From: Lachnospiraceae bacterium
GTDB taxonomy: Bacteria; Bacillota; Clostridia; Lachnospirales; Lachnospiraceae
Assembly (NCBI GenBank): GCA_029225065.1
Contig: JAQXVT010000047.1
Location: forward strand, 1 to 64,000
Direction of reading: 5' to 3'
DNA: 64,000 nucleotides
Both the position numbers and the translations under genes were made by a program. The notes beneath the pieces are model-generated. The model was not told the DNA's origin and searched no databases. It saw only the letters and a list, made by a program, of their open reading frames with translations. Below are positions 9,930 through 33,089 of this stretch, in pieces (within the stretch, counting starts at the first letter, position 1; every line of letters starts with the position of its first letter).

Positions 9930-9944
9930 ATATACGTTCCTTTT

Positions 9945-9958: not shown

Positions 9959-10051
9959 TAAAATATCGTACTTGTTTTTTGTTTCTCATAAATATAATTA
10001 TAACTGCAAAACAGAAAAATACAAGTCTTATTTGAAAGGAGCTTTTGAAAA

Positions 10052-10447: not shown

Positions 10448-10453
10448 TTATAG

Positions 10454-10498
10454 AAAAAACCTTAGCAGCTGAATTTCAAATCAGCACTAAGGCTATTT
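10454..10498. terminator. Bidirectional terminator
   Basis: CCTTAG...GCTGA pairs with TCAGC...CTAAGG; T-rich tails on the minus side (TTTTTT) and weaker on the plus side (CTATTTCT). It follows the flavin protein gene at 10447 and faces the adaA relic. Confidence 0.75.
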
Positions 10499-10558
10499 CT
10501 CTTGTTTGCCGACCTGAAAAGATGAATTCCTTTCTTTCCAGATTGCCGGCTGATCTCA

Positions 10559-10925
10559 TCATCTATCTTTAATGCCAGTAATCATAAGGATTACTCTGTG
10601 CTTTCTTTTTTTCTGTTTTTCCAGTGCTTTTCTCCGCAGCTTCTCTGGTAAGAAACAGTCGGTCAGTGCATTTGGTGCGTCAGTTTTTGCGTCTGCATCG
10701 GCATATTTCTTTGGACTCACACCGTATTCCTGCTTGAAAATGTCCGTCATCCGGCGTGGCGTCAAGCCCACATCATCCAGAGAAGCCGCCTTATCAATCC
10801 GTGATTTGATCTCCGCCGCACTCTCCCGCATAGGCTGGTATTCCAAAAGGTCACTGCGGCAGCTTTGATTTGCAGGATGGGCGGCAGAAAATGCCCGTTG
10901 TTTTTACAGCCCCTTGGATTACAAT
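10559..10925 (-). pseudogene. adaA: adaA-like remnant (Ada methyl-acceptor domain plus AraC helix-turn-helix)
   Basis: Two pieces of an AdaA-type protein are readable in different frames. The upstream piece has VKTTGIFCRPSCKSK, the Ada motif with the methyl-accepting Cys. It then runs into a stop. The downstream piece starts with CRSDLLEYQPMRE, the segment that in intact proteins follows the zinc-binding FRPCKRC, and continues into an AraC-type HTH (DVGLTPRRMTDIFKQEYGVSPKKYADA). Roughly twenty residues between the pieces are missing, including part of the zinc site, and the N-terminus is absent. A deletion with a frame change is the simplest cause. The protein cannot be functional. Confidence 0.75.
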
Positions 10926-10937
10926 TCACGTGCAAAA

Positions 10938-11471
10938 TCAATGGCTTTTTCTTTTCATGCAGCCGTAAATTTTATCAAGCAGCATGCATACAACGAATGC
11001 AGTCGCAATGCCTAGAACAACTCCAAACAGCACATCCGTCGGATAGTGAACAAAGAAGTACATCCTGCTGAATCCGACCATAGCAGCAAACACAAATACT
11101 CCGATACCGGCTTTTTTGTGATAATGAAAGATTGCCATCGCGCTTGAAAAGGCCAGATAGGTATGTACCGATGGACAGGAAAAGCTTGTAGACTTCTTCA
11201 CAATCAACGGTATCGTGCTATCCACTGCACAAGGCCGTGGTCTTGCAATCATGTCTTTCAGGAATTCATTTCCAATCAGGAAAGATACCGCAAAGGACAA
11301 CAGAACTGCTGCACCACATTTTCTTGTTTTTGGGATAATAAGTAACACCAGCCCGACTACAATCCAAAGCTGTCCCATCGATCCCACCAGGGTATTGAAA
11401 ACTGTAACCATCACACGGTCCAAAACCGGATTGTGAATGGATTGAATTGCGTATAAAATATTCAGTTCCAT
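10938..11471 (-). CDS. PAP2 family phosphatase
   Basis: A 177-residue membrane protein with all three PAP2 motifs: KDMIARPRP, PSVHTYLAF (Val replaces the usual Gly of PSGH) and SRMYFFVHYPTD. Five or six hydrophobic segments surround them. The family removes phosphate from undecaprenyl pyrophosphate, phosphatidic acid or related lipids on the outer membrane face. The function here is not more exactly assignable. Single gene; the stop lies only 12 bp from the adaA relic. Confidence 0.9.
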   Translation of the reverse strand: MELNILYAIQSIHNPVLDRVMVTVFNTLVGSMGQLWIVVGLVLLIIPKTRKCGAAVLLSFAVSFLIGNEFLKDMIARPRPCAVDSTIPLIVKKSTSFSCPSVHTYLAFSSAMAIFHYHKKAGIGVFVFAAMVGFSRMYFFVHYPTDVLFGVVLGIATAFVVCMLLDKIYGCMKRKSH

Positions 11472-11579
11472 GCTAATTGTTTCTCCTTTTTTATTCTCTA
11501 TTATTGTATTTATTATTGTATTTACTTAATTTCATCCCCACTATCATATACTTTCTGTAAACCAATAGGAAATGGCTCT

Positions 11580-13415
11580 TTATGCATGTTCTTCTGAGGA
11601 TAGTGTTTGTCTGGCAACCAGCTCAGCGAAAAATCCTTTCTTCTCTATTAGCTCCTCATAGGTTCCATCTTCGATGATTTTCCCATGATCCAGTACAAGG
11701 ATTCGGTCACAATTCTGAATCGTTGACAGTCTGTGGGCTATTACAATTCTGGTACAATGGAGATGATCCAAAGCCTCAGACACCTGTTTCTGTGTCAAAT
11801 TATCCAGTGCACTCGTTGCTTCGTCAAACAAAAGAATTTCCGGCTTAGGCGCAATTGCTCTTGCGATCATCAGTCTCTGTTTCTGTCCTCCGGATATTCC
11901 ACCGGCACCTTCTGATATCACGGTATTCATTCCCATTGGCATCTTCCTGATGTCTTCCGCAATCCCTGCAAGTTCTGCTGCTTCCCACGCATCCTCCTGT
12001 GTCAGCCATGGGGCAGAGATCACAATGTTGGAATAAATTTCACCTTGAAAGAGCTTACCATTTTGCATCACCACACCGATTTTTCTCCGCAGTGACTTCA
12101 GATCTATTCTTTCCAGATCTTTTTCATCGTAGTAAATTGCCCCTTTCTGCGGCTTCTCAAATCCAAGAAGCAGGCGGATCAGTGTAGATTTTCCGCAGCC
12201 CGTCTTTCCAACAATTGCCACATACTCTCCCGGATGGATTTTCAAAGACAGATCATCCAGAACAAACGGCATGTTCTCCGTATAGCGAAAAGAGACATTG
12301 TTCAGCTCGATTTCTCCCGAAATACGCTCCAGCACCTGTTTATTCTCGGAGATTTCCGGAACCGCATTAAAAATCGGCCGAACCATTTCCAGCGCAGGCC
12401 GTATCTGTGCTATGGTAAGTGCAATTCCTGCCAACGACGAAAATGCTCCCGACACCATACCATAAGCGGTATCAAAAGTGTAATAATCTGCAACCGAAAC
12501 ATTGGATTGAATTGCAATATAATAAAGCACGATCGTTCCGAATAGAGAGATTCCGGTATTGATCACGGAATTTATCTTCAGAAATACCGGAGGATCATAC
12601 AGCAAGCTGGCCTCCTCTGCATATAAGTTTCCCCATCTTGCAAATGCACGTTTTTCTGCACCGGATAAGCGGATCTTCTGCACACCGGAAATCAGCGCAT
12701 AGGTCATTCCATCCTCTTTGCCGGCAAGCTCCATCTGCTTTTGCGATATTCCCGTCTGTGCCAAAGATGAAATAAGAGTAAACATTACTGTTACAACGAT
12801 CGTTACCAGTGCCGGAACTGCAAGTGAAGGGGTAAAAGCAAAAATCTGCGTAATATAAACCAGGGAAAAAACAGAAGTAAGTCCTGTAGAAAATACCGTA
12901 GAGACCAACATATCGCAAAGTGAATTCATGCGTCCTGCACGGCTTGACAATTCACCTGCACTGTAATTTCGGAAAAAATCGGCCGGAAGCGACAGGACAC
13001 GCATCATTGTCGCCGCCTCCACCGCAAGACTCAGCTTTATATCAATCCGCGAGGTCACCAGATTACTGACTGCCTGAAACAATAAGCTGGACACTGACAC
13101 GGACAGCATAAAGATCAATGCTGCCGCAAACAACCGCATATTGCCGGTTGGCAATACTCTGGCAAATATCAGGTTACTGATTCTTGGGATCAACAGCCCC
13201 ACTAATATGACGGCAAGTGATGCCAGTCCCATCATAAGATAATCTGACGGGTAGAGCGTTTCCAATATATATTTCCAGAGTGTGCTGATTCCCATTTTTT
13301 TCATTGGAAAGGGTTTATAAAAGGCAAGTGCCTCCTTTTCATTGTGAAACGGACATTTGCAATCCGCTTTGCTACGATCAAAGCGTAAATTAAAAAGATA
13401 ATTTCTCAAGCCCAT
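11580..13415 (-). CDS. ABC exporter (transmembrane plus ATPase), NHLM/bacteriocin-export-like
   Basis: A fused exporter half: an N-terminal ~50-residue cytoplasmic part, six transmembrane helices (~50-330), then an ATPase with Walker A VGKTGCGKST, signature GGISGGQKQRLMIARAI and Walker B EILLFDEATSALD. The N-terminal segment before the first helix resembles the permease/ATPase subunits of NHLM-type peptide exporters, but no peptidase domain, partner exporter or precursor peptide gene is near. The ATG at 13415 with GGGGAA upstream is preferred over a TTG at 13442. It probably works as a homodimer; cargo unknown. Confidence 0.85.
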   Translation of the reverse strand: MGLRNYLFNLRFDRSKADCKCPFHNEKEALAFYKPFPMKKMGISTLWKYILETLYPSDYLMMGLASLAVILVGLLIPRISNLIFARVLPTGNMRLFAAALIFMLSVSVSSLLFQAVSNLVTSRIDIKLSLAVEAATMMRVLSLPADFFRNYSAGELSSRAGRMNSLCDMLVSTVFSTGLTSVFSLVYITQIFAFTPSLAVPALVTIVVTVMFTLISSLAQTGISQKQMELAGKEDGMTYALISGVQKIRLSGAEKRAFARWGNLYAEEASLLYDPPVFLKINSVINTGISLFGTIVLYYIAIQSNVSVADYYTFDTAYGMVSGAFSSLAGIALTIAQIRPALEMVRPIFNAVPEISENKQVLERISGEIELNNVSFRYTENMPFVLDDLSLKIHPGEYVAIVGKTGCGKSTLIRLLLGFEKPQKGAIYYDEKDLERIDLKSLRRKIGVVMQNGKLFQGEIYSNIVISAPWLTQEDAWEAAELAGIAEDIRKMPMGMNTVISEGAGGISGGQKQRLMIARAIAPKPEILLFDEATSALDNLTQKQVSEALDHLHCTRIVIAHRLSTIQNCDRILVLDHGKIIEDGTYEELIEKKGFFAELVARQTLSSEEHA

Positions 13416-13650
13416 TGTGCATAATTCCCCAGGTTTTGACAAGTAGTCAATCTGTTTTTATCCTGTTTTCGTCTTATTATTAGTAACATTGCGTGATATG
13501 TTATGCAATAGTGACAGAATTAAAGAACCATTACCAATGTCCCGGGAGTTTTACAGTTGAATAATTAAAAATCACCTTGCAGACCTTATAAAACCTGCAT
13601 TTTTTATGTCAAATTTTATGTTTTGGTATGTGCTTGTTTGTAATAGTGTA

Positions 13651-13782
13651 TTATATATAGAAGAAAATGGAAAAGCCTCTTCCTGTATTTATAAAAATCC
13701 CGGGAAGTACAATACCCATTGTACCAAGTCCCAAACACAGAAATCCTAAAACACTCCAAATAACTTTTAACGGATTTTTCAT
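13651..13782 (-). pseudogene. Truncated DUF454 (YbaN-like) membrane protein
   Basis: Forty-three codons begin as a DUF454 protein (MKNPLKVIWSVLGFLCLGLG, then TMGIVLPG) with a ribosome site GGGAG, but after the first helix the sequence changes and a stop follows. Family members are about 120 residues. The frame downstream shows nothing of the remaining helices. Confidence 0.6.
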
Positions 13783-13840
13783 TTTCTTATTCTACTCCCT
13801 GTTTCATATTAATTTTTTATCCGCGGTTAGCTTCAACTTA

Positions 13841-13896
13841 AAAACAAAATGGCATTTGACAGACCTCTTTTTGGGATCTGTCAAATGCCTCTTTTT
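13841..13896. terminator. Strong bidirectional terminator
   Basis: Thirteen-base perfect arms (GGCATTTGACAGA and TCTGTCAAATGCC) with T-runs on both sides. It ends the MATE gene from the right and shields the DUF454 remnant. Confidence 0.9.
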
Positions 13897-13954
13897 CATT
13901 GCACAGCATATTCTCTCAGAAAGCGCTTCGCCTCTGCCTGCTGCATTACGCCTT

Positions 13955-15316
13955 TTACGCTTCGCTTAATTCCTTATACACGGAGCGCATCATAAATACC
14001 ACTACAATCAGGGAGATCACATCCGCTACCGGTGCGGAATATAAAGCTCCCACTACTCCGAAGAATCTCGGGAACAGTAAAATTAACGGAATGCTCAGGA
14101 TAAAGTCTCGCAGTAAGGACAGTCCCAGAGACATCACCGGTTTTCCGAGCGACTGCAGGAAAATACTTGTTGCCTTCTGTACACAGCAGAAAATAATAGT
14201 GCACAGATAAATACGGAATGCCAGTACTGCAAACTCATTATACAGTTCGCTCTCGCTTCCGAAGATACGGATAATAGAAAGCGGAAATACCTCAAATACA
14301 ACGGTTGACACAATACCTACGATTACCTCTGCGCGCATCATCGTTGCATAGATCTTTTTCACACGCTCATTTTTTCCGGCACCGTAATTATAGCCGACAA
14401 TTGGCTGTGAGCCTGCTGCAATTCCTACCACAACAGAAATAACAATCTGGAATACCTTCATTACAATTCCAACGACCGTAAGCGGAATATCCGCACCGTA
14501 TTTGGATTTTGCACCGTAAGCTACCAGTGTATTGTTCATCACGCCCATAATCACTACGATAGACATCTGTGTCAGGAAGCTGCTGATACCCAGCGGTAAA
14601 ATCTGTTTCAGAAGACCTGCGGATAAGCGGAAGCAGGATTTCTGAAGCTTTACCGCTTTCATTCTGGTCAGATAGCCGGCGGAAAGCACTGCCGTCACGA
14701 TCTGACCCGCAATGGTTGCCAGAGCGGCACCGCGCATACCCCAGCCCAGCACAAAAATAGCGATCGGGTCAAAAATTACATTGATGATACATCCAATCAG
14801 GGTAGAAAGCATCGCAAACTGCGGGCTTCCATCTGCACGGATGATCGAGTTTACCGCATTTCCGAAAATAAAGAACGGCAGTCCGATTACAATATAGTCA
14901 AAATATTCTCTCGCATATGCAATATTATTTTCTGTCGCACCAAAAGCTGCAAGAATATGATCCTTCAGAAGAACAAAAAGCAGTGTCAGGACAATCCCTG
15001 CAATTACCAGAACAACAACCGCATTTCCAACACTTCTGTTTGCACTCTCGGCATCCTTTTTTCCCTGACAGATACTCAGATACGCCGCACAGCCATCTCC
15101 GATCATAAGCGCGATCGCCAGCGCGATAATTGTGATCGGGAACACTACGTTGGTCGCACCGTTTCCCAGATAACCGACGCCCCGTCCGATAAAAATCTGG
15201 TCTACAATGTTATACAGAGCAGAAACCAGCAACGACATGATACATGGTATGGAAAACTTCAGCATCAGCTTTCCGATTTTTTCTTCTGCAAGATAATGAT
15301 TTGCGTTTTGATTCAT
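13955..15316 (-). CDS. MATE family efflux transporter
   Basis: A 453-residue twelve-helix antiporter of the multidrug and toxic compound extrusion family. It has the two related six-helix halves and typical MATE stretches (SALYNIVDQIFIGRGVG, IVGYNYGAGK). The start at 15316 is chosen because GGAGG sits five bases upstream. The gene has a leader with a 19-codon ORF overlapping a terminator, so its expression may be induced by translation inhibitors. Substrates cannot be read from sequence. Confidence 0.92.
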   Translation of the reverse strand: MNQNANHYLAEEKIGKLMLKFSIPCIMSLLVSALYNIVDQIFIGRGVGYLGNGATNVVFPITIIALAIALMIGDGCAAYLSICQGKKDAESANRSVGNAVVVLVIAGIVLTLLFVLLKDHILAAFGATENNIAYAREYFDYIVIGLPFFIFGNAVNSIIRADGSPQFAMLSTLIGCIINVIFDPIAIFVLGWGMRGAALATIAGQIVTAVLSAGYLTRMKAVKLQKSCFRLSAGLLKQILPLGISSFLTQMSIVVIMGVMNNTLVAYGAKSKYGADIPLTVVGIVMKVFQIVISVVVGIAAGSQPIVGYNYGAGKNERVKKIYATMMRAEVIVGIVSTVVFEVFPLSIIRIFGSESELYNEFAVLAFRIYLCTIIFCCVQKATSIFLQSLGKPVMSLGLSLLRDFILSIPLILLFPRFFGVVGALYSAPVADVISLIVVVFMMRSVYKELSEA

Positions 15317-15338
15317 TTTTCCCTCCATTTATATATAT

Positions 15339-15398
15339 CTATGGCTTCCAAACAGGTGGAGCATAAAAATAGCCGTATATGTCGGCTTTCACATACAC
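15339..15398 (-). CDS. Candidate leader peptide of the MATE gene
   Basis: GTG start with AGGTGG five bases upstream, 19 codons (reads M-YVKADIYGYFYAPPVWKP), TAG at 15339, 22 bases before the MATE start. It is aromatic-rich and overlaps both arms of the terminator at 15365-15402. That layout is used in ribosome-mediated attenuation of resistance genes. Confidence 0.5.
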   Translation of the reverse strand: MYVKADIYGYFYAPPVWKP

Positions 15399-15402
15399 GG
15401 CT
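15365..15402 (-). terminator. Leader terminator (attenuator) upstream of the MATE gene
   Basis: AGCCGTGTATGT pairs with ACATATACGGCT over an eight-base loop, then ATTTTT. It lies between the likely promoter (TATACT near 15422) and the gene, and within the leader ORF. Confidence 0.7.
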
Positions 15403-15553
15403 ACCACCTAAAGCTTACGTAGTATAACATATTTGTCCAGAGCTTCGTAATAATGCAATTTTCACGAAATTAATGAAAAAATCCTCTCATCTTTCCATGA
15501 TATCACAAAAAACGGCCCAATCAGAGCCGCAAAAGGCAGTTCGTAAAATTTTC

Positions 15554-15583
15554 TTGCATTTTCTCCGGTTCATGCATTATAAT
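15554..15583 (+). promoter_or_regulatory. Promoter of the second MATE gene
   Basis: TTGCAT (15554-15559), 18 bases, TATAAT (15578-15583), followed by a short leader with a terminator. Confidence 0.6.
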
Positions 15584-15608
15584 AAACAAAAAACGAAGCC
15601 GGCTTTGA

Positions 15609-15662
15609 AAGCGTGAAATCACGAGGAACTGCTTATCCTCACAGATTTCGCGCTTATTTTTT
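15609..15662 (+). terminator. Leader terminator (attenuator) of the second MATE gene
   Basis: AAGCGTGAAATC pairs with GATTTCGCGCTT (one wobble); an inner GAGGA/TCCTC pairing lies in the loop. Seven to eight T follow, 20 bases before the start codon. It is a transcription attenuator of unknown class. Confidence 0.7.
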
Positions 15663-15682
15663 TGCCGGCCACAGGAGGTTTT

Positions 15683-16959
15683 ATGAACACAAAAAACAAA
15701 CTGGCTGATATGCCAATCCGCCCCCTACTGTATACAATGGCAGTCCCTCTGATGCTGTCGCTGCTTGTGCAGTCGCTCTACAATATTGTTGACAGCATTT
15801 TTGTCGCCAGATTATCAGAAACTGCGCTGACTGCCGCATCCCTCGTATATTCCGTTCAGTTCTTAATGATCGCTGTAGGTGTCGGTACTGCCGTAGGACT
15901 GAATGCTCTGCTCTCCCGAAAAATCGGGGAACATACACCAGAAGAGGCATGTCAGGCTGCCACAACCGGACTTTTTCTGATGCTGATCACAGCCCTCATA
16001 TTTTCCATGGCCGGTATTTTTTTCTCAGATGTCATTGCTTCCAAAATGACATCTGATCCGGAACTTCAGACACTCTGCAGGCGGTCGGAGACACCGTTTT
16101 ATCCATGATTTCTCTGATCATTGGCGCTATTTTGAATATTATCCTTGATCCTATCATGATCTTCGGTCTCCTGGGCTGTCCCGCAATGGGCATCCGTGGT
16201 GCGGCAATTGCAACCGTCATCGGACAAATCTGTGGTGCCATTGCTGCACTTCTGTTCAACCGCTTCCACAATCCGATCATCCATGTGCATCTGAAGAACT
16301 ACCATTTCAGATGGCAGGATATTGCTGATATTTACCGGGTAGGACTTCCAACCATCATTATGCAGGCTATCGGAAGTATTATGACTTTTGCCGTAAACAG
16401 TATTCTTCTTCACGTTTCCGCAACAGCCGTTGCCTTTTTTGGTATCTATTATAAGCTGCAGAATTTCCTGATGATGCCGACCAATGGTCTTGGACAGGCT
16501 GCTATTCCCATCGTCGGATATAATTATGGAGCTAAAAAATATCAGCGCGTACAGCAGGCCTGGAAGATTCTGCTTCCTACCGGAGCTGTGATTGCCCTGT
16601 GCGGAACTGTTATATTCTGGTGTTTTCCCGGAAAATTGCTGCAATTATTTTCTGCAAGTCCGGAGATGCTCGCTCTTGGTGTTCCGGCACTTAGAATTAT
16701 CTCTGTTTCTTTTGTCCTGGCTGCCGTCACGATTCTGTGCGGATATTTTGCTTCCGGACTGGGAAACGGTATCATCAACATGGTCAGCGCTGCCATAAGA
16801 CAGCTGGTTTTACTGGTTCCCTGCCTCCTGATTTTTATAAAAACCCTGGGCATTTCACATTGCTGGTATGCATTCTGGATTGCAGAGATCATTGCCTGCG
16901 TTTACAGCTACTGTACATCACGGAAATTACTGAAAACAATTTCAGCAAAATCGCTTTGA
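15683..16959 (+). pseudogene. MATE family efflux transporter with internal deletion
   Basis: AGGAGG precedes the ATG at 15683. The first ~131 residues read as a normal MATE N-terminal part (SLLVQSLYNIVDSIFVARLS) up to ELQTLC. At a CTGCAG at 16075-16080 the homology jumps to LQAVGDTVLSM in another frame and then continues to the end (GAILNIILDPIMIFG, IVGYNYGAKK). About thirty residues, covering the helix 4 region, are missing and the frame is broken; the first frame stops at 16108. The second part could restart at 16105 but would lack the first helices. Either a true pseudogene or an assembly error. Confidence 0.8.
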
Positions 16960-18053: not shown

Positions 18054-19151
18054 TCACTGCAAAAGTCCCATCCGCTCTGCCTCCTTTTTCAGCTCCTCGC
18101 ATCTTCGGTTGACCATTCCGAATCGGCTTACCGCGCAGATCACGCGCTTGCAGCGCCGCATAACTGCGAGCGCCTCACGCACCTTTTCTTCGGAAATCTC
18201 CTCAAAGGCCTGCTCTGAAATGACGGTCCCGGCAAGTGCGTGGGCTACCTGATAGTCCACATCGTTCTCCGGGAGAATGCCGGCCGCAAACGGGATGCCC
18301 TGGCGCTGCAGCTGCCGAAAAACGGGAATGCCGCTTCCGCCTCCTGCGATCACAAAGACCTCCGGCTCTCCTCTCGGCGCATCGAGCTCCAGACAGCCAA
18401 ACGATGCGTTGTAGCTCCCGACCGTCACACCGTAGAGATGATGAATGTACTCGTCGGTAAAGATTTCCTCCGGTACACCCATGCACTCGATCCGGTCGCC
18501 GTGCACACAGATCACAAGATCAGACACCTTCTGCGCAAGATCGAGTTCATGCAGGGACATAAGCACCGCGACGTGCTTTTCATGTACCATCTGTTTCAGG
18601 ATAGCAAGTAACTCCAGCTTGTGCCGAATGTCAAGAAATGAGGTCGGCTCATCGAGCACGATCACCTCCGGCTCCTGACAGATTGCACGCGCCAGCAAAA
18701 TCCGCTGCCGCTGCCCGTCACTGATCGCAGAAAAATCGCGGTCACGCAGCTCCCAGGCATGCACCAGCTGCATGGCGCTCTTTACCTTCTCGTGATCCTC
18801 TGCGCCCAGAATGCCAAGCGTCCCCGTGTAGGGATAGCGTCCCGTTGCGACGACATCCTCACACGTCATCAGTTCCGGATGAATCCGCTCTGTCATGACG
18901 ACTGCCATTTTCCGCGAAATCTCCTTGTCGGTCATGCGCTCCATCGAGGTATTGTCGAGCCAGACAGCGCCGCCGACCAGCTTCAGCTGACGGATCAGGC
19001 TTTTTAAGATCGTCGATTTTCCGGCTCCGTTTGGGCCGATCAACGTAAGGATCTGGCCTTTTTCCAGAGAAAGACGGATGTCACGGATCAGCGGCTTCCC
19101 GTCATAGCCAACGGTCAGATTTTCTGTGTATACAAAACTTTTCTGTGTCAT
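18054..19151 (-). CDS. FecE/BtuD-type ABC ATPase with extra C-terminal domain
   Basis: A 365-residue ATPase for a metal-complex importer. Residues ~1-255 are a standard FecE-type domain: Walker A GPNGAGKST, signature ISDGQRQRILLARAI (unusual ISDGQ instead of LSGGQ) and Walker B VIVLDEPTSFLD. About 110 further residues follow that the family normally lacks, starting with FVIAGGGSGIPVFRQLQRQG, a glycine-rich beta-alpha pattern like a nucleotide or cofactor site, then a helical end. It directly abuts the permease gene (no spacing), the last gene of the operon headed by the exported chelatase. Confidence 0.88.
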   Translation of the reverse strand: MTQKSFVYTENLTVGYDGKPLIRDIRLSLEKGQILTLIGPNGAGKSTILKSLIRQLKLVGGAVWLDNTSMERMTDKEISRKMAVVMTERIHPELMTCEDVVATGRYPYTGTLGILGAEDHEKVKSAMQLVHAWELRDRDFSAISDGQRQRILLARAICQEPEVIVLDEPTSFLDIRHKLELLAILKQMVHEKHVAVLMSLHELDLAQKVSDLVICVHGDRIECMGVPEEIFTDEYIHHLYGVTVGSYNASFGCLELDAPRGEPEVFVIAGGGSGIPVFRQLQRQGIPFAAGILPENDVDYQVAHALAGTVISEQAFEEISEEKVREALAVMRRCKRVICAVSRFGMVNRRCEELKKEAERMGLLQ

Positions 19152-20168
19152 CTATCGTTTCCCTTTTCTGTTTATCATGACGTAAATTACCACCGGTGCT
19201 CCGAAAATTGCGGTCACGGAACTGATGCTCAGCTCTGTCGGCGCAAACACGGTACGCGCAATCAGGTCGCAGAACAGACAGAATGCCGCACCGCCAAGGA
19301 AGCATGCCGGAATCACCAGAATCGGCTTCGCCGTCTTTAACAGGCTCTTCATCAGCTGCGGCACGGCGATACCGACAAACGAAATCGGTCCTGCGAATGC
19401 CGTCACGCACGCGCTCAAAATGCTTGAAAGCAGAATCAGCTCCACACGAAACCGTTTGATATTCACGCCCATATTGCGCGCATAGCCCTCACCCAGCTGG
19501 TAAGCGCCCATCGGCTTTGAGAGCAGAAACGCCAGCAGCACGGAAACCGCCACAACGCCCGCCATCATTGCCACATTGCTCCAGTCCGTACCGGAAAAGC
19601 TTCCCTGTGACCAGTTATGCAGGTTCACGATGTTGGAATCCTCCGCAAATGTCACCACAAAATCCGTAACTGCCGAGCAGATATAACCGATCATAACTCC
19701 GCTGATGACCAGCATTGACATATTTTTGACCTTCCGCGATACGAGCAGCACGAATCCCATCGAGATCAGTGAACCGGCGAACGCAGAAACAATCATCAGT
19801 CCGGAGCCCGCAGTCATGCCCTTTCCCAGAAGGAAGATCATCGTCAGCGCTACGGTCAGCTTTGCCCCCGAAGAAATACCGAGCACAAACGGACCTGCGA
19901 TCGGGTTGTTGAAAAAAGTCTGCAGAAGGAACCCGGAGGCCGAAAGCGCGCCGCCCAAAATCAGCGCCGCCAGAATACGCGGCAGACGAATCGACCAGAC
20001 GATATTTCTGGCTGTCTCATCGCCGCCTTTTTGAAACAGAATCTGAAACACTTCACGCACCGTCAGTGACACGCTCCCGGAGTTGATATTCCAGAAGACA
20101 AGCATCAGAAGGAGCGCCGCGAGCATCAAAAACGATGCGATATAGCGTATTTTTGCTTTATTTTTCAT
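19152..20168 (-). CDS. FecCD-family ABC importer permease
   Basis: A 338-residue permease with about nine or ten hydrophobic helices. Family landmarks are RLPRILAALILGGALSASG, NPIAGPFVLGISSGA and the cytoplasmic coupling region VGIAVPQLMKSLLKT. Such permeases form dimers that move iron-siderophore, heme or corrinoid complexes delivered by a binding protein. The gene lies between the binding protein and the ATPase, with a stop-start contact to the ATPase. Confidence 0.92.
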   Translation of the reverse strand: MKNKAKIRYIASFLMLAALLLMLVFWNINSGSVSLTVREVFQILFQKGGDETARNIVWSIRLPRILAALILGGALSASGFLLQTFFNNPIAGPFVLGISSGAKLTVALTMIFLLGKGMTAGSGLMIVSAFAGSLISMGFVLLVSRKVKNMSMLVISGVMIGYICSAVTDFVVTFAEDSNIVNLHNWSQGSFSGTDWSNVAMMAGVVAVSVLLAFLLSKPMGAYQLGEGYARNMGVNIKRFRVELILLSSILSACVTAFAGPISFVGIAVPQLMKSLLKTAKPILVIPACFLGGAAFCLFCDLIARTVFAPTELSISSVTAIFGAPVVIYVMINRKGKR

Positions 20169-20289
20169 ATTTTCCTACCGTTCCAATCCACAGTCGGTAT
20201 TTTCCCTCTTCATCTTTTCCGCTGACATAAGCATCCCCACTACTCCACACTCTGTACATTTGAAAGTGGGAATGCCTATCTGCCTTCCT

Positions 20290-21483
20290 TTACTCAAGCC
20301 GGTACAGATACGTCAGGTTCTCCGGGCCGTCCTCCGTCAGCATCCGGTGCATATCCATGATCACGTCGCCCAGGCACGTTGTCTCCTGGAACATGCTCTT
20401 CGTCAGGCACCATACATTGCCTTCCTTTACCGCCTTGAAATCCTTCAAAAGTGCGCTCTTCTTCAAAAGCTCATCGAGTGACTTTAATTCCCCGTCGATT
20501 GTGCTGTTGTAAATGATGTAATCTGCATCTTTGGCTCCGGCGTAAAAGTCCTCCATCCCCATGTTCATCGTGGACTGACCTTCCTCATCCGCGCCCAGAT
20601 CTTTGAAAATATACTGGCCGCCGGCAAGATCAATCATCTTGGACACATAATCGCCGGCCTTGCGCACGTTCGCCGCGCCCATGGAATTAATATAGAAGAA
20701 AGCCACCGTCTTTCCTGTACTTTCCACATTTTCAAGTGAAGCCAGCTGTGACGCCTGCTCCTCAAAGAGTGCTTCCGCCTCGTCCTCTTTTCCGAGAAGC
20801 GCGCCGTAAAGCTTTACCCACTCAGTCCTGCCAAGCGGATGGCTCTCATAGCTCGAATGCTCCACCATCACCGGAATACCAAGCTCCTCGAGTTTCTCCT
20901 TTACCTCCGGCTTATGGTAGATCATCGTGGATTCGATCGCGAGATCACAGCCTGCCGCCAGAATCTGCTCATAGTCCGGCGCACTGTACTTTCCTGCAAA
21001 GGAAATGCTGCCATCCTCAAGAGCCTCCTTCGCCTTATCGATATACCAGCCGTCCGCGTTCGTTCCGGACAGACTGATGGCATCCAAGGCGTCCAGCCCG
21101 CAGAAAAAGTCCATCGCTGACGTCGCCACCAGATAAATGCTCTGCGGCGTGTGCGAAAGCACTGTGATGTCATCCGGCAGGTCCTCAGGTGCCTCCTCGC
21201 CATCCGGCACCAGCAGGTACTCGCCATCACCCTCGATTGTAAAGAGCTTATAGCCTCCCTCATAATAGTCTACGGAAAACTGATCGGCATAGGACAGCGG
21301 AAGCGTATGATCCCACGTAAGGCCCGGGAGATCCGGAGCATCCGGCGCTTCTTTCTGAGCATGCTCAGTTTCATCGGTCTCTGCCTGCGCAAGGACCGTT
21401 TGTGCCCCGGTGGCTGCCAAAGGAGAGCCTGCTGTCACCATGCTCAATATTCCACACAGAAGCATCACTGTGTATCGTTTCAT
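20290..21483 (-). CDS. ABC importer substrate-binding protein, FecB/BtuF type
   Basis: A 397-residue exported binding protein. A signal peptide is visible (MKRYTVMLLCGILSMV, with an alanine-rich cleavage region) but no clear lipobox, so anchoring is uncertain. The body is a two-lobed type III binding protein with long helical linker (CDLAIESTMIYHKPEVKEKL, AEALFEEQASQLASLENV). The start at 21483 has AAGGTGG upstream. It would deliver a metal complex, heme or corrinoid to the FecCD-type permease downstream; the cobalamin riboswitch favours a cobalt or corrinoid ligand. Confidence 0.87.
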   Translation of the reverse strand: MKRYTVMLLCGILSMVTAGSPLAATGAQTVLAQAETDETEHAQKEAPDAPDLPGLTWDHTLPLSYADQFSVDYYEGGYKLFTIEGDGEYLLVPDGEEAPEDLPDDITVLSHTPQSIYLVATSAMDFFCGLDALDAISLSGTNADGWYIDKAKEALEDGSISFAGKYSAPDYEQILAAGCDLAIESTMIYHKPEVKEKLEELGIPVMVEHSSYESHPLGRTEWVKLYGALLGKEDEAEALFEEQASQLASLENVESTGKTVAFFYINSMGAANVRKAGDYVSKMIDLAGGQYIFKDLGADEEGQSTMNMGMEDFYAGAKDADYIIYNSTIDGELKSLDELLKKSALLKDFKAVKEGNVWCLTKSMFQETTCLGDVIMDMHRMLTEDGPENLTYLYRLE

Positions 21484-21602
21484 TTTTTCCACCTTTTCTA
21501 TATTATGTACGCCCGGAGCCTTTTCATCGCCTGCTTTTACGACAAAATCCTGAGCGCAGATCATTTTCTTTCAGAAAAATATACAGGGTTCTTCTGCCAA
21601 TG

Positions 21603-22499
21603 CTACTCACTCAGGCTGAACGTCAGTGTATACTCAATCTCGTGCGGCTCGCTCATCGCAACGGTATCTGCCACAACCTCCATCGGATAATCAAAGCCAT
21701 CCACCGGAATCTCAAACGTAGAATTGCCCTCTGTGTTGACCGGCTCATATTTCTCGCCGTCAATAATCATATAGTCATAGTTCGGGCTGCTCCATACGAT
21801 CGTCGCTGTCACTTCGCCATCCTTCACGGTCAGGTTTGCCGGAGAATCCACCGTTGCTCTTCCGCTTCCGCCCTCAAGTGTTACGTCTGCAGTGTACTCG
21901 CCATCCTCAAGACCAAGCTCCTCTGCCGTCACCTTTTCCCCTGCATCTGCCTGCGCATCCTCATCCTTCACCGGATTGCTGACGCTGACTTTGTGCTCAT
22001 ACCATTTGCCCTTCTTACCGATGGCTGATATAGTAAACTCTTCCCCGATCGCCGGTACCGGGATATCAAAACCATAAACCTCCTCAGAGGTTCCGTCTTT
22101 ATAGGTTACGGTATCTGTGGTCGGCTCAAGAAGCTCTGCTCCATCCTTTTTTGCATCCTCGGAGCTTCCCATGAAAAGGTTCAGAAAGCCTTTGCCGCCA
22201 AGGCTTACATGAATCGTCATCTCTCCGTCCTTTACGGTCAGCACACCTTTTCCGTCATTTGCCTCATTGACATGGAACATCGAGCTGTCCGTGTCAAACT
22301 CTGCCGTATAAACGCCGTCCTCGAGAACCTCTCCCGCTTCTGCCCCGGTGCCATTCTCTTCTGCTTCAGAAGCCGCCTCGGTACCTGCCTCAGTAGTAAC
22401 CTCCGTCTCGGTCTCCCCTGCAAATACTGCCGGGCAGCTGCCCATCAGAAGAGAAGCCGCGGTAACCAGTGATAAGAAAAATGATGTGGATCGTTTCAT
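21603..22499 (-). CDS. Secreted protein with two repeated beta-rich domains, NEAT-like
   Basis: A 298-residue protein with a signal peptide (MKRSTSFFLSLVTAASLLMG) and an acidic, Glu/Thr/Ala-rich linker to about residue 55. Two related domains follow: the first has LEDGVYTAEF and LTVKDGEMTIHVSL, the second LEDGEYTADV and LTVKDGEVTATIVW. Size and beta pattern recall NEAT or related heme/iron-binding surface domains; the family is not certain and no axial ligand can be proved. No LPXTG motif is seen. It lies between the chelatase and the binding protein, so it may hand over a tetrapyrrole. Confidence 0.7.
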   Translation of the reverse strand: MKRSTSFFLSLVTAASLLMGSCPAVFAGETETEVTTEAGTEAASEAEENGTGAEAGEVLEDGVYTAEFDTDSSMFHVNEANDGKGVLTVKDGEMTIHVSLGGKGFLNLFMGSSEDAKKDGAELLEPTTDTVTYKDGTSEEVYGFDIPVPAIGEEFTISAIGKKGKWYEHKVSVSNPVKDEDAQADAGEKVTAEELGLEDGEYTADVTLEGGSGRATVDSPANLTVKDGEVTATIVWSSPNYDYMIIDGEKYEPVNTEGNSTFEIPVDGFDYPMEVVADTVAMSEPHEIEYTLTFSLSE

Positions 22500-22536
22500 G
22501 ATAAATTTCCTCCTTGTTTATACCCTTGTCTATACC

Positions 22537-22580
22537 AAAAGCAGCCCGGATGTCTTGCAACATTCCGGGCGGCCCTTTTT
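22537..22580. terminator. Hairpin between chelatase and NEAT-like gene
   Basis: GCAGCCCGGATGT pairs with ACATTCCGGGCGGC; TTTT follows on the minus strand, CTTTTT on the plus strand. Placed inside the operon it may lower expression of the downstream genes relative to the chelatase. Confidence 0.6.
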
Positions 22581-22669
22581 ATGAAAGTTTCAGGACACTC
22601 ATTTCCTGTTATGCTTTCTTTTCCTGACTATATAAAGCAGGTGCTCATATATGTCATCTGATCTTATGA

Positions 22670-23887
22670 TTACTCTGCGATAGAGTCGATTGCGTCCTTT
22701 GTATGAGCGACATACAGCTGCTCAACTGCTTCGATTCTTCCAAGGCCCTCGATCTGGCAGTCTACGGTGTCAAATGCTCCGGATTCTACGAACTGAGTCT
22801 TCCAGGAATCCTCGTCATCGCCTGCCATGTCGTTGTTTGCATGGTCACCTGCTACTACCATCAGCGGACGAAGAACAACCTTCTTGAAGCCTGCATCCTG
22901 TACTTTCTTGATAACCTCTTCGCAAGCGGTATCTTCCGGCTCACCTTCAACGGTTCCGATGAATGCGTTTGTGAATCCAAGATCGTTCATCTGTGTCTGC
23001 ATCTGATCGTAGGTTACGTTTGCAGTATGAGAAGTACCATGGCCCATGAATACGAATGCAACGCCATCCTCAGCTGCTGCTGCCATATCGTCGTAGCCAG
23101 CCTCAGATGCTGCCTGATCTGTGATTGCCTGAGCAACTGCCTTCTTGTCATCGTTGATTACGGTAGCATCATCGCCAACCTCACCGAGCATCGGCTCAGC
23201 GATTGCAACGGACTCAAATTTATCTCTGTAAGCATCGATTGCTTCTACCATCTCATCGTACTCTGCACCGTGCATCAGATGTGTCGGCTGAACAACGAGG
23301 TTCTTTACGCCGTTGTCAACTGCACGCTGAAGTGCCTGATCCATGTTGTCGATCTTCTCGTCATCTCTTGCCTGTACGTGGTTGATGATGATCTGTGCAG
23401 TAAATGCTCTTCTGACTGCCCAGTCCGGATAAGCCTCCTGCAGTGCATCCTCAATGCCCTTGATATCCTCTGCACGGCTGTCGTTGAAAGAAGTACCAAA
23501 GCTTACAACCAGAATTTCGTTGTCACCAATCTCATCTGCGTTGCGCGGATCGTCCTTGGAAGCATCTCCTGTATCACGTCCGAAGTACTCCGGGCTTGCC
23601 TCCTCGCCCTCTACCAGCTCTTTCTGCGCATCTGTCAGTGCATCCCATGCTTCCTTAGCTGCGGTGCAGTCTGCGTCGGTTGTGTCGGTTCTTTCCTGTA
23701 CGTAAATTTTATCGATCAAAGCCGCAACATTGTCAGCAGCTGCCTGATCTGCATCTTCCTCGCCAGCCTCAGATGCTGCCTCTGTAACAGCCTCTGTCTC
23801 CTCTGCATAAATGCCAACCGGGCTTACCATTGTAAGCGTGGATGCCGCCATCATCATTACCAGTGCTTTTACAACTCTGTTTTTCAT
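22670..23887 (-). CDS. cbiK: Exported sirohydrochlorin cobaltochelatase-like protein (CbiK family)
   Basis: A 405-residue protein. Signal peptide: MKNRVVKALVMMMAAS to an AYA-type site near residue 28. A Glu/Ala-rich linker and a short helical segment with AWDALTDAQKELV (seen in surface proteins) follow to ~residue 100. The rest is a CbiK class II chelatase: ILVVSFGTSFNDSR, PTHLMHGAEYDEM with the metal-site His, FMGHGTSH with the second His, and LRPLMVVAGDHANNDM. Cytoplasmic CbiK inserts cobalt into sirohydrochlorin; export of this one is clear from the signal peptide and its role outside is unknown. It heads an importer operon behind a cobalamin riboswitch. AGGAGG precedes the ATG. Confidence 0.88.
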   Translation of the reverse strand: MKNRVVKALVMMMAASTLTMVSPVGIYAEETEAVTEAASEAGEEDADQAAADNVAALIDKIYVQERTDTTDADCTAAKEAWDALTDAQKELVEGEEASPEYFGRDTGDASKDDPRNADEIGDNEILVVSFGTSFNDSRAEDIKGIEDALQEAYPDWAVRRAFTAQIIINHVQARDDEKIDNMDQALQRAVDNGVKNLVVQPTHLMHGAEYDEMVEAIDAYRDKFESVAIAEPMLGEVGDDATVINDDKKAVAQAITDQAASEAGYDDMAAAAEDGVAFVFMGHGTSHTANVTYDQMQTQMNDLGFTNAFIGTVEGEPEDTACEEVIKKVQDAGFKKVVLRPLMVVAGDHANNDMAGDDEDSWKTQFVESGAFDTVDCQIEGLGRIEAVEQLYVAHTKDAIDSIAE

Positions 23888-24028
23888 GTTTTTTTCCTCC
23901 TTAATCTTCTCTGCACGGATCAACTCTTGCCGTCCTGTGCAGCAGACGTCAGAAAATTTATGCCCGCATTCCCCGCACACTTAAACGAAAAAACGGATAC
24001 GGAAACAGAACCAACACGGCAAACTGGT

Positions 24029-24058
24029 AAAAAAAAACCTTTTACACGTGGTAAAAGG
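24029..24058 (-). terminator. Riboswitch expression-platform terminator
   Basis: CCTTTTAC and GTAAAAGG with a five-base loop, followed by nine T on the minus strand. It lies between the cobalamin aptamer and the chelatase gene. Confidence 0.85.
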
Positions 24059-24096
24059 ATCGCGGGAAATAAAAATAAATATGGTACAATCAATTA

Positions 24097-24303
24097 CTCG
24101 TGATCCGGGCTGTCCCCTGTACCGCAACAGGCAGGTTTCCTGACTCACAGATCCACGCTTCGGCTGCCTTCCCGGTTTCCCAGTGACTAATAGCTTCGCT
24201 CCCTGCTTACAGTGACGAGATCGTGCAGGATTTTCACCTGCTTCCCTTTTACCTGTTTTTCACCGTCTTTATCATCACCCTGTGAAAAACAGCACCTGAT
24301 GCT
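24097..24303 (-). promoter_or_regulatory. Cobalamin riboswitch controlling the exported chelatase operon
   Basis: On the minus strand: GCAGGTGAAAATCCTGC, then GTCACTGTAAGCAGGGAGC (B12-box region), then GTCAGGAAACCTGCC, all in the canonical order and spacing. With the terminator at 24029-24058 it should switch the operon off when the cobalamin pool is high. The gene it faces starts at 23887. Confidence 0.93.
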
Positions 24304-24397
24304 TTCTTATTTAATTGTGTGGCAGAACGCCTGCATCCTGGCGTTTCTGCCCGTATCATAGCACATTCTCTCTAGAAGTACAAGAGGAAAAAAGCTA

Positions 24398-25579
24398 TCA
24401 TTTCTGTCTTTTTTTTCGGCACAGTACCACTCCGAGCAGCAGCAGAACCGGGAAAATGACGCCTGCAAGAATGCCTCTTTTCAAGTCATCCCCGGCAAGC
24501 TCCGATACAAAGCCAACCAGAGTCGGCCCGCCGGAGCATCCAACATCTCCGCCAAGTGCCAGAAGTGCAAACATCGCCGTACCGCCCTTTGGGAGTGCCG
24601 CCGCTGCCTTGCTGAAGGTGCCCGGCCACATGATTCCAACGGAAAGACCACAAAGCGCGCAGCACACAAGGCTTAGCTGCGGCGCCTGAAACAGACCAAT
24701 ACCGAGATAGGAGGCGATGCACAAAAGGCTGCTCCATACCATGAAACGGTCAAGTGAAATCCGATCGCCATATTTTCCATAAAATGCCCGCGATGCACCC
24801 ATCAGAATTGCAAATGCCATCGGCCCCGCAAGATCTCCTGCCGTCTTTGTGATGCCAAGGCCCTTTTCCGCAAGCGTTGAAGCCCACTGGCTGACGCCCT
24901 GCTCGCTTGCACCCGCACAGATCATCATGATCAGCAAAATCCAGAATGTCTTCATCGTGAGCAGTTCTTTTAAGCTCAGCCCGGTCTCACCCTCCTCCAT
25001 CAAAGGCCGGATCGGCACCTTTGTAAATGCCATCGCATTTGCAAGCGGTACAATCGCCCAAAGCACAGCCAGGATTTTCCAGTTGGTGATTCCAAAAACG
25101 GAAAAGAAAATCGTCGAGATCAGCACCACGCCCACATGTCCCCAGCAGTAAAATGAATGGAGCATGCTCATCGCTTTTTCTTTATTGTCCGACGGGCACG
25201 ACTCGACAACCGGACTGACGAGCACCTCGAGAAGTCCGCCTCCGATCGCGTAAACCATAACTGCAATCAGAATGCCTGCAAATGCAGACGGCAAAATCCC
25301 GGGCAGTACCGTCAGAAAGATCAGTCCGGCTGCCGACAGGATATGCGCAAGCACCATGCAGAAACGATAACCCAGCCGGTCCACAAAGCCGACTGACAGA
25401 AGATCCACAAGCAGCTGCACGCCAAAATTAAACGTGATCAGCATCGTGATCTGTGACAGCGGAATATCATATGTCCGCTGAAACGTCAGAAATAAAAGCG
25501 GCGCAAAATTGTTGATGATTGCCTGCACGATATAGCCGACAAAGCACGCCTGTATCGTCTTATTGTATTCATTCTTCAT
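24398..25579 (-). CDS. Major facilitator superfamily transporter
   Basis: A 393-residue MFS protein with twelve hydrophobic helices in two halves. The loop between helices 2 and 3 has VDRLGYRFCM, a form of the MFS loop motif. It lacks a long soluble extension. The ATG at 25579 with GAGGAAAG upstream is preferred over one at 25597 that has no ribosome site; it overlaps the upstream SnoaL-LytTR gene by 11 bp, so both are translationally coupled and behind the same c-di-GMP-I riboswitch. Cargo unknown; sugar or drug transport are both possible. Confidence 0.87.
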   Translation of the reverse strand: MKNEYNKTIQACFVGYIVQAIINNFAPLLFLTFQRTYDIPLSQITMLITFNFGVQLLVDLLSVGFVDRLGYRFCMVLAHILSAAGLIFLTVLPGILPSAFAGILIAVMVYAIGGGLLEVLVSPVVESCPSDNKEKAMSMLHSFYCWGHVGVVLISTIFFSVFGITNWKILAVLWAIVPLANAMAFTKVPIRPLMEEGETGLSLKELLTMKTFWILLIMMICAGASEQGVSQWASTLAEKGLGITKTAGDLAGPMAFAILMGASRAFYGKYGDRISLDRFMVWSSLLCIASYLGIGLFQAPQLSLVCCALCGLSVGIMWPGTFSKAAAALPKGGTAMFALLALGGDVGCSGGPTLVGFVSELAGDDLKRGILAGVIFPVLLLLGVVLCRKKRQK

Positions 25580-26408
25580 TCTTTTTTCTTTCCTCATCTA
25601 AGAGCGGTACACTTTCCGCCTTCGACTCCCCGCAGCGTTTCCGAAGTTCTGTCTTTACCGCCATATATTTTTTCTCCGGCACCGGAAGCTCGACGCCGTT
25701 TTGCAGCCGTATCCGGAAACGCCAGATCTCAGCCACATACTGCGGATTTACCAGATAGCTCGCATGGCACCGGATAAACAGCTCCGGATAACGATTCATC
25801 AGCGTCTGCAGACTTTCCACAGACTCATAATCGCCCTCCACTGTGTGAATCACCGTGTGGCTTCTGGCCGTCTCCACATACAGAATCTGTCTGCTGTTTA
25901 GAAACAGAAGCGCCTTGTTAATGCTCTTGATCTGCACCCGCTCCGAACGCGGCTCTCCCGCAAGCACAAATTTTTTATAATCTGATTCATAATGGAGTGG
26001 ATAAATAGTATCCCTTTCATCGTATACGATCGCATTTGAAATATGGCATACCCGAATCCGGATCATTTCCATTCGTTCTGTAATCGTCAGCTGGACGCGC
26101 TGTTTGACCTGATTCACACTGCCATCCGGCCAGATGGTATCCACTGTAAATGCCAGTATAATTTCACACACATGGCTGTTTACCGTGGAAAGCGGAATCA
26201 CCTTGAGGTCACGAATTACAAATCTCAGATCATTTTTTTCCGCTGCAAAAGCTGCCACCAGTGCCTCTCTCGTCCGTATAATCTGATTTTCCGCCGGTCC
26301 GATCCACAATACATCCTCATCACATGCATCCAGAAATGGCTGTATATCATTATTATAGTAGCGTATCACAATATCAGCGGCCTGCTTTGCCACTTCCTGA
26401 ACATTCAT
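25569..26408 (-). CDS. SnoaL-like domain fused to LytTR DNA-binding domain
   Basis: A 279-residue regulator. Residues ~1-135 look like a SnoaL/NTF2-like fold (ADIVIRYYNNDIQPFLDACD, DVLWIGPAENQIIRTREAL) that could bind a small ligand. Residues ~165-265 are a LytTR domain (INKALLFLNSRQILYVETAR, YPELFIRCHASYLVNPQYV). No receiver domain is present, so it is not a classical response regulator. It lies behind a c-di-GMP-I riboswitch and overlaps the MFS gene. Its target is likely its own operon; inference. Confidence 0.85.
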   Translation of the reverse strand: MNVQEVAKQAADIVIRYYNNDIQPFLDACDEDVLWIGPAENQIIRTREALVAAFAAEKNDLRFVIRDLKVIPLSTVNSHVCEIILAFTVDTIWPDGSVNQVKQRVQLTITERMEMIRIRVCHISNAIVYDERDTIYPLHYESDYKKFVLAGEPRSERVQIKSINKALLFLNSRQILYVETARSHTVIHTVEGDYESVESLQTLMNRYPELFIRCHASYLVNPQYVAEIWRFRIRLQNGVELPVPEKKYMAVKTELRKRCGESKAESVPLLDEERKKNEE

Positions 26409-26510: not shown

Positions 26511-26621
26511 TAAAAAGCATTGCCTGACTTTGATAATGCTCTTCTTCATACTGTGCAGCTGGCTGCCATTTTACAGGTCCTTTAGCTTTGCGTCGCAACC
26601 TTTCGATTGTTTTGCCCTTTT
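26511..26621 (-). promoter_or_regulatory. Second cyclic di-GMP-I (GEMM-I) riboswitch with terminator
   Basis: On the minus strand: GGCAAAACAATCGAAAGG, GCGACGCAAAGCTAAAGG, ATGGCAGCCAGCTGC. A terminator follows (AGCATT...AATGCTTTTT at 26511-26540). A TATAAT box lies about 30 bases upstream of the aptamer. The core is almost base-for-base that of the switch at 5781-5885, including CCTGTAAAATGGCAGCCAGC. It precedes the SnoaL-LytTR regulator and MFS pair. Confidence 0.93.
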
Positions 26622-26725
26622 ACATATAAATTTTCGTAAAAATTATTATACCATTTCCGTTTTAAAAAACAAGCCTGCAAAACGATTTCACTGACACAGA
26701 CCAGAAACAGGCGTTAATTTGACAC

Positions 26726-31244: not shown

Positions 31245-32024
31245 TTACCTGGTCCATCCAAGATACGCGATATTCAAATATCCGTTTTTCTTCTCAATCG
31301 AGGTATTGACATGGAACACACTGCGCATCCGTTCCTCTGTCAGAACCTCCTCCGGCGTACCGTTTGCAAGGATTCTGCCTTTTTGCAGCAGCAAAATCCG
31401 GTCACAGTATCTGGCTGCCAGATTCATATCATGTACGGACGTAAAAATGGTCTTATCCTTAAATTGCCGCATAATCTCCATGATATACAGCTGATAACCG
31501 ATATCCAGGTGATTCGTCGGCTCATCTAAAATGATCAGCTCGCTCTCCTGCGCAAAAGCCATTGCGAGATAAATCCTCTGCTTTTCCCCTCCGGAAAGGC
31601 TTAAAAAGCTCCGTTCCTCAGTTCCCTGCATCCCGACCATTGAAAGTGCTTTTTCAACAATCTCCTGATCCGCCTCGCTGTCCTGCTCAAACATCTTTTT
31701 TCTGGAATAGCGCCCCATCATGACCATCTCCTGTACGGAAAAATCAAAATCCGGCTGATTTTCCTGCGCCACGACAGCCATCTGCTGCGCAATCTCTTTC
31801 GACTTCATGTGAAAGACATTTTTTCCATTCAGATAAATGGCACCGGCAGTCGGTGTATACTGACGGTATATATTTTTTAATATCGTTGATTTTCCGCTTC
31901 CGTTCGGGCCTATCAGACCGACAAACTCATTTTTGGAAACAGACAGAGATACCTGCGAAAGAATCTTTGATGTCTCAATATTAAAGTCCAGATCTTTGAC
32001 CTGAATCACTTCATTTTTCTTCAT
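31245..32024 (-). CDS. FecE/BtuD-type ABC importer ATPase
   Basis: A 259-residue ATPase: Walker A GPNGSGKST, signature LSLSGGEKQRIYLAMAFA, Walker B LIILDEPTNHLD. Standard length, without the C-terminal extension of the ATPase at 18054. Last gene of the second B12-riboswitch operon, after the permease (9-bp gap). Confidence 0.92.
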   Translation of the reverse strand: MKKNEVIQVKDLDFNIETSKILSQVSLSVSKNEFVGLIGPNGSGKSTILKNIYRQYTPTAGAIYLNGKNVFHMKSKEIAQQMAVVAQENQPDFDFSVQEMVMMGRYSRKKMFEQDSEADQEIVEKALSMVGMQGTEERSFLSLSGGEKQRIYLAMAFAQESELIILDEPTNHLDIGYQLYIMEIMRQFKDKTIFTSVHDMNLAARYCDRILLLQKGRILANGTPEEVLTEERMRSVFHVNTSIEKKNGYLNIAYLGWTR

Positions 32025-32033
32025 CGCGCCCTC

Positions 32034-33080: not shown

Positions 33081-33089
33081 AACCTCGCC

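Follow-up and report, generated by a model that had tools for sequence, protein, structure and literature searches.

We found that the window, a stretch of 64,000 nucleotides of Lachnospiraceae bacterium DNA (assembly GCA_029225065.1, contig JAQXVT010000047.1, positions 1 to 64,000), carries a single operon in which a cobalamin riboswitch is followed, in this order and all on the minus strand, by genes for an exported CbiK-type chelatase, a secreted protein with tandem NEAT-like domains and an ATP-binding cassette (ABC) importer of the FecBCD/BtuFCD type. We propose that this operon encodes an extracytoplasmic module that loads cobalt and imports it to feed anaerobic (cobalt-early) cobamide synthesis, a reading to which we assign a probability of about one half and in which the chelatase activity and the ligand are inferred. 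The evidence was best read as a supply of cobalt to de novo cobamide synthesis, ahead of heme use or corrinoid salvage alone. A sequence-only reading of the same DNA had described the B12-riboswitch operon, the exported CbiK, the two-domain NEAT-like secreted protein and the FecBCD-type importer, and all of these were confirmed. The parts of the operon are as follows.

24113..24314, minus strand: cobalamin riboswitch aptamer at the operon head (RF00174, 100.1 bits, E 7.9e-24, above the gathering cut-off of 31.5)
24038..24058, minus strand: intrinsic-terminator-like hairpin with a U tract of nine U, between the aptamer and the first gene (pattern scan and sequence)
22670..23887, minus strand: exported CbiK-type (type II) chelatase with a signal peptide, a conserved linker region and a CbiK domain
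21603..22499, minus strand: secreted protein with two NEAT-like domains (A, residues ~59-178; B, residues ~195-296)
20290..21483, minus strand: class III substrate-binding protein with a FecB/BtuF-like fold
19152..20168, minus strand: FecCD/BtuC-type permease (Pfam FecCD, E 2.6e-80)
18054..19151, minus strand: ABC ATPase with an extra C-terminal region (residues ~245-365; Pfam ABC_tran, E 2.3e-29)

The start codons of the chelatase and binding-protein genes were reset to a conserved Met on the basis of a ribosome-binding site or near-invariance.

The set was found to accompany de novo corrin synthesis. In an even sample of 291 genomes from the class, in which the NEAT pair served as the marker, CbiD was present in 14 of the 15 marker genomes as compared with 74 of the 291 genomes overall (Fisher test, which ignores kinship, 2e-8); no clear exported CbiK was seen in four of the marker genomes (G361, G138, G385 and G350). 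Among 98 relatives, exported CbiK was defined as a protein that is 50% or more identical to the window protein (49 genomes, with the partial or broken copies in G006, G009 and G076 kept), and it was found in 49 of the 63 CbiD-positive genomes and in none of the 35 CbiD-negative ones; weak CbiK-type matches of 25-36% identity in five CbiD-negative genomes (G063, G066, G082, G084 and G094) were not counted. When one genome per species was scanned, at least 589 relatives of the NEAT protein were confirmed, of which the best 80 are the named loci. All parts of the set were present in 69 of these best 80 loci and the chelatase in 78; most of the 11 loci without all parts lay on short contigs or had contig ends near the locus edge. 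Forty of the best 80 carriers were tested for CbiD, and 39 of them had it. All parts were also found in 29 of 39 fetched relative loci. The set was widespread in Clostridia, with record titles of carriers that include Blautia, Roseburia hominis, Faecalibacterium and Sellimonas.

The link to cobalt and B12, which had first been argued from the riboswitch, was made far stronger by the context of the set in cbi operons, by the CbiD association and by the absence of CbiM. In particular, the set heads or sits inside cbi operons at L166-L171 (directly beside cbi genes), L204 and L205, and in G043 and G005 it comes after cbiA/cbiC, behind its own switch. A B12 switch preceded the set in 38 of 41 loci of the genus and family sample, which includes the window's own; the three misses were a locus without the importer (G056) and two that were cut by contig ends (G057 and G007). 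The switch was also found before the set in all eight class loci, in 7/7 named loci and in both G005 and G043. The sequence-only reading had proposed a tetrapyrrole that is scavenged, in what would be a new salvage route. This part was not borne out, because the set accompanies de novo corrin synthesis and is embedded in cbi operons; a precursor made by the cell itself is the more likely tetrapyrrole, and cobalt supply the more likely job of the set.

CbiM was largely missing where the set was present. Among CbiD-positive genomes of the class sample, CbiM scored above the cut-off in 3 of the 14 with the marker versus 51 of the 60 without it (Fisher test, 1e-5). Within families, the corresponding counts for genomes with and without the marker were 0/4 versus 3/3 (f1), 0/1 versus 3/4 (f35) and 1/1 versus 2/2 (f68), and among the relatives CbiM was found in 13 of 49 genomes with the set versus 9 of 14 without it (p 0.013). 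A search of the window's own genome did not find CbiM. The length of CbiM was tried as a discriminator between nickel and cobalt transport and was rejected as weak, as a long form was present in G005 about 4.5 kb upstream of cbiL (L205); the counts that ignore length are preferred for this reason. With a limit of 310 amino acids, the counts were 2/14 versus 45/60 in the class sample and 2/49 versus 9/14 in the relatives.

We also found 17 CbiD-positive genomes, each at least 90% complete, in which CbiK matches occurred solely at the exported gene. Every CbiX match in these genomes fell inside the exported CbiK gene as well, and G055 had no CbiX match. A signal peptide or lipobox was recognized, by eye or script, on the exported CbiK in 17/17, and six of the genomes (G211, G223, G233, G286, G329 and G358) were assembled into about 40 contigs or fewer. 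With the exported protein as the only CbiK or CbiX, cobalt would be inserted outside the cytoplasm, or else by an enzyme outside the CbiK and CbiX families.

The chelatase matched the CbiK family model PF06180 with 251.0 bits (cut-off 26.2, E 1.6e-74) and scored below the NCBIfam equivalog SiroCoChCbiK (201.9 bits, cut-off 400). Its structure-sequence matches were Salmonella CbiK (1qgo, E 3e-37), Porphyromonas gingivalis FetB (9b86, E 3.1e-36) and Desulfovibrio vulgaris CbiKP (2xvx, E 4e-30). A signal peptide was evident in the sequence, a lipobox or Sec signal was recognized in relatives (by eye and script), and the protein was not classed as cytoplasmic. Upon alignment to the matched structures, His314, His380 and Glu240 occupied the columns of Salmonella His145, His207 and Glu89, the last of which we take to be an active-site residue. 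All three were invariant in 39 of 39 aligned orthologues, and thus both metal-binding His residues, to which the sequence-only reading had attached weight, are kept. Asp242 and Asp249 occupied the columns of the heme-ligating His residues of CbiKP in the 2xvx alignment, which we assume to be positions 96 and 103. The invariant His/His/Glu together with Asp at the heme-ligand columns indicated that the metal-insertion site is retained and that the known heme adaptation is absent. The available text of one source gives His145 and His207 as active-site residues of CbiK (PMC7689651). We infer that the activity of the chelatase may be cobalt insertion into sirohydrochlorin.

The fold search revealed a true NEAT fold in the secreted protein, so the NEAT-like assignment of the sequence-only reading stood; the matches listed include the IsdA NEAT domain with cobalt-protoporphyrin IX (3qzp). 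The Pfam NEAT model PF05031 reached 27.5 bits, below its cut-off of 32.8, and matched 49 of 61 orthologues at E 1e-3 or better, a count that uses the E-value and not the Pfam cut-off. Sequence searches of solved structures with the NEAT alignment, and with domain B alone, gave no NEAT chain; the fold search alone found NEAT. The NEAT heme-binding motif is presumably Tyr-x-x-x-Tyr. Tyr167 of domain A and Tyr290 of domain B were conserved and the motif was altered, reading Tyr167-x-x-x-Val171 in domain A and His286-x-x-x-Tyr290 in domain B if the last strands correspond.

Among the 39 relative loci, domain A was fused to the chelatase C-terminus in 16 and domain B to the binding-protein N-terminus in 15, with both fusions in 14; at L057, both domains were on the binding protein. 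In the best 80 loci, the chelatase-NEAT fusion was found in 6 and the NEAT-binding-protein fusion in 6. These fusions in relatives indicate that the parts of the set probably act together, and they are the best evidence for what would be a relay from chelatase to NEAT domains to importer outside the cell.

Long proteins with NEAT-like stretches were also observed. A protein of 1595 amino acids at L033:13023-17810, near an operon variant, had at least three stretches like the NEAT protein (24-31% identity) and was followed by a binding-protein gene; a Pfam search of it gave no family. Genomes of family f26 encode proteins of more than 1000 amino acids with a domain-A-like NEAT stretch (L176:7463-10675, L177:12047-15628 and L183:6998-10405). 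Additionally, NEAT proteins at L179 (G361, 4189-16954) lie beside CobN (1237 amino acids), a ChlI/VWA-type protein (655 amino acids) and a FecCD-type importer with the cognate binding protein, a layout like that of the set but with a class I chelatase.

Peripla_BP_2, FecCD and ABC_tran domains were all present in the importer, as is typical of the FecBCD/BtuFCD type. The best NCBIfam models all scored below their cut-offs: BtuC for the permease (210.8 bits, cut-off 334), corrinoid ABC transporter ATPase for the ATPase (203.4 bits, cut-off 537) and IsdE for the binding protein (29.6 bits, cut-off 298.65). The C-terminal extension of the ATPase seems to be absent from some orthologues of about 250-280 amino acids. 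In the leader, the hairpin and U tract are the probable expression platform, predicted to switch the operon off at high B12; the RNA folding energy of the leader was not significant (z -1.10).

On the proposed reading, low B12 would let the riboswitch permit readout of the operon. Outside the membrane, the secreted CbiK would bind Co2+ and place it in sirohydrochlorin or a closely related compound. The two NEAT domains would keep hold of the tetrapyrrole both before and after this step and hand it on, and the binding protein and BtuCD/FecCD-type transporter would import the cobalt-tetrapyrrole for further conversion by CbiL and the remaining Cbi enzymes. Cobalt would then enter already within the ring, which would explain the scarcity of the CbiMNQO cobalt importer in genomes with the set. 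The ligand is probably (cobalt-)sirohydrochlorin, as suggested by the enzyme family, by the action of CbiL on the metalated ring and by the Desulfovibrio cbiK-cbiL-btuCDF unit, as far as the available text of the sources describes them; the order of transfer would follow from the same model. In the accessible part of one source, cobalt-sirohydrochlorin is the species methylated next in the pathway (PMC7689651). A stronger version, in which an obligatory step of B12 synthesis is extracellular, is tentative and in our view somewhat less probable than its opposite: sirohydrochlorin would leave the cell as a "cobaltophore", be metalated by the secreted CbiK, be held by the NEAT domains and re-enter as cobalt-sirohydrochlorin, with no need for import of free cobalt.

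A candidate for the outward step was seen in eight loci, where an ABC-2 ATPase and permease lie beside cbiL and the NEAT proteins (L076, L083, L117, L136, L144 and L149, which are 6 of the best 80 loci, and L181 and L182). Genes for hemC and cobA/hemD were often close to the pair, and a CbiK without a signal peptide was present in four of the eight loci (L117, L144, L181 and L182). The pump is a candidate exporter of a B12 precursor and could send out sirohydrochlorin. It was rejected as a universal part of the system, since at E 1e-20 it was found in 7 of 291 class genomes (2 strong) and, among the 98 relatives, in only 12, of which 11 have the set; with this distribution it would be accessory at most.

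Several observations weigh against the proposed module. The window's genome (G000; 3.18 Mb, 96% complete) also encodes an ordinary cytoplasmic CbiK (L072:9994-10764, contig C48) within a complete hem/cob/cbi gene set, which makes the exported CbiK dispensable for chelation there. This gene heads hemA, hemC/D, hemB, hemL, cobU and cobS, with a partly matched cobalamin riboswitch upstream (10863-10982) and cbiA, J/E/T, H, G, F, L, D, C and P nearby; the hem/cob/cbi names came mostly from BLAST to reference proteins that were themselves named partly by NCBIfam and partly by position and recall. In the 17 genomes with a sole exported CbiK, CysG/Met8-type enzymes might insert cobalt instead. Of the 49 relatives with the set, 13 do encode a CbiM-family protein. 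The Fisher tests ignore kinship, and the class carriers come from six families. The ABC-2 exporter family was not found in the window's genome at E 1e-20, and weaker relatives of it were present in five class genomes without the set. The fold of the binding protein was rejected as a guide to the ligand, with siderophore, heme and nickel binders all within a few Z units.

Corrinoid salvage is an unlikely alternative, in which the NEAT and binding proteins would capture exogenous cobamides or cobinamide for BtuCD-like import and the exported CbiK would be a corrinoid binder and not a chelatase. The B12 riboswitch agrees with it, as do the BtuC and corrinoid ATPase models named above (both below cut-off) and the presence of cbiP in 36 and cobT in 35 of the best 80 loci, since both genes are also used in salvage. 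However, such a system should serve cells without corrin synthesis, yet exported CbiK is confined to CbiD-positive relatives, and nearly all marker genomes have CbiD. The metal-binding His and Glu are invariant, and salvage leaves the mostly absent CbiM and the sole exported CbiK unexplained. Moreover, the window has a second FecBCD/BtuFCD-type importer (31245-34031, minus strand) behind its own cobalamin riboswitch (34322-34538, minus strand, 87.1 bits), with neither chelatase nor NEAT genes, which is likely an ordinary corrinoid importer.

Capture of cobalt ion only, with CbiK and NEAT binding Co2+ or a small cobalt chelate for FecCD-type import and no tetrapyrrole crossing the membrane, would also account for the mostly absent CbiM, and FecB-like binders of Ni(II) or Ni-His (4inp and 4ls3) were among the fold matches. 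We consider it improbable, as two tetrapyrrole-binding families (the CbiK and NEAT folds) would be used without a tetrapyrrole and the 17 genomes would be left with no chelation step. It is more doubtful still that, as in the salvage route of the sequence-only reading, sirohydrochlorin or similar tetrapyrroles from neighbours are metalated outside, imported and made into cobamide. All parts are indeed extracellular or membrane-bound and most carriers lack the ABC-2 family exporter, but the early route is encoded by the window's genome (hemA, hemC/D, hemB and hemL in L072) and several carriers, and L117 has HemC, CobA/HemD, HemB and Met8. Heme or iron acquisition, in which NEAT takes heme, CbiK removes or shuttles the iron and the importer takes up heme, is very improbable given the B12 riboswitch, the cbi operon context and Asp242/Asp249 in place of the CbiKP heme ligands, even though NEAT domains of known function among the matched structures bind heme, FetB (9b86) is annotated as heme-binding and IsdE is the best NCBIfam model of the binding protein, though below its cut-off.

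We compared the set with known systems. D. vulgaris reportedly has two functional CbiK proteins, in contrast to the exported type alone in 17 genomes here. FetB of P. gingivalis, listed in the PDB as "Heme-binding protein FetB", shares the CbiK family with our chelatase but has a heme context and other partner proteins, as opposed to the B12/cbi context here; we take FetB to be identical with IhtB and to lie at the cell surface. IhtB was termed a putative ferrochelatase/reverse ferrochelatase in the available text of its source (PMC13227078). The accessible text of the Desulfovibrio papers describes a periplasmic CbiKP in D. vulgaris (PMC4063343) and one B12 element over cbiK-cbiL and btuCDF (PMC545781). 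This system, like the window set, combines an exported CbiK, B12-riboswitch control and an adjacent importer; it differs in that no NEAT partners are mentioned in the text available from these two papers and in having heme-ligating His where Asp is found here. The HmuS/BtuS (CobN-like) heme de-chelatases of Bacteroidota also place an exported chelatase relative beside an importer, but, according to the available parts of the reports, they belong to an unrelated chelatase class and remove iron from heme (PMC13227078, PMC12583661). In the Isd/Hbp/IsdX heme relays of Gram-positive bacteria, NEAT domains lack the features seen here, namely partnership or fusion with a chelatase, B12 control, a Pfam score below the cut-off and an altered Tyr motif. 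CbiMNQO has the same proposed role, cobalt for B12 synthesis, but is an unrelated transporter found mostly in different genomes from the set. BtuFCD shares the transporter type and the riboswitch, to which a chelatase, NEAT domains and a tie to de novo synthesis are added here.

Desulfovibrio CbiKP is a precedent for the combination of exported CbiK and B12-regulated importer (in the text available, PMC4063343 and PMC545781), and FetB is a similar exported protein (9b86); an exported CbiK is not new as such. New here are a NEAT marker found almost only with de novo corrin synthesis, the mostly absent CbiM and the sole exported CbiK in 17 genomes. Open-access literature searches for this exact system returned no paper describing the NEAT relay, the fusions, a sole exported CbiK or the inverse relation to CbiM. 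Cobalamin synthesis is usually pictured as taking place in the cytoplasm, with cobalt supplied by an importer. Should the exported CbiK be the working cobaltochelatase where it stands alone, a step of the pathway would lie outside the membrane, a B12 precursor would be exposed to neighbours and a fold known for heme would serve cobalt; with carriers titled Blautia, Roseburia and Faecalibacterium, the set matters for the question of which gut bacteria can produce precursors of B12 or steal them. In the accessible part of their paper, Rodionov et al. found no cobalt transporter in delta-proteobacteria with cbiK and proposed CbtX (PMC545781), and the set is a testable candidate for that transporter.

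Directly upstream of the operon, on the same strand (24398-26408, minus strand), genes for a major facilitator superfamily transporter and a LytTR-type regulator were found, which did not recur as a fixed part of the set in relatives. We also observed two c-di-GMP-I (cyclic di-GMP) riboswitches in the window, at 26551-26626 (minus strand, 55.9 bits) and 5817-5892 (minus strand, 54.1 bits).

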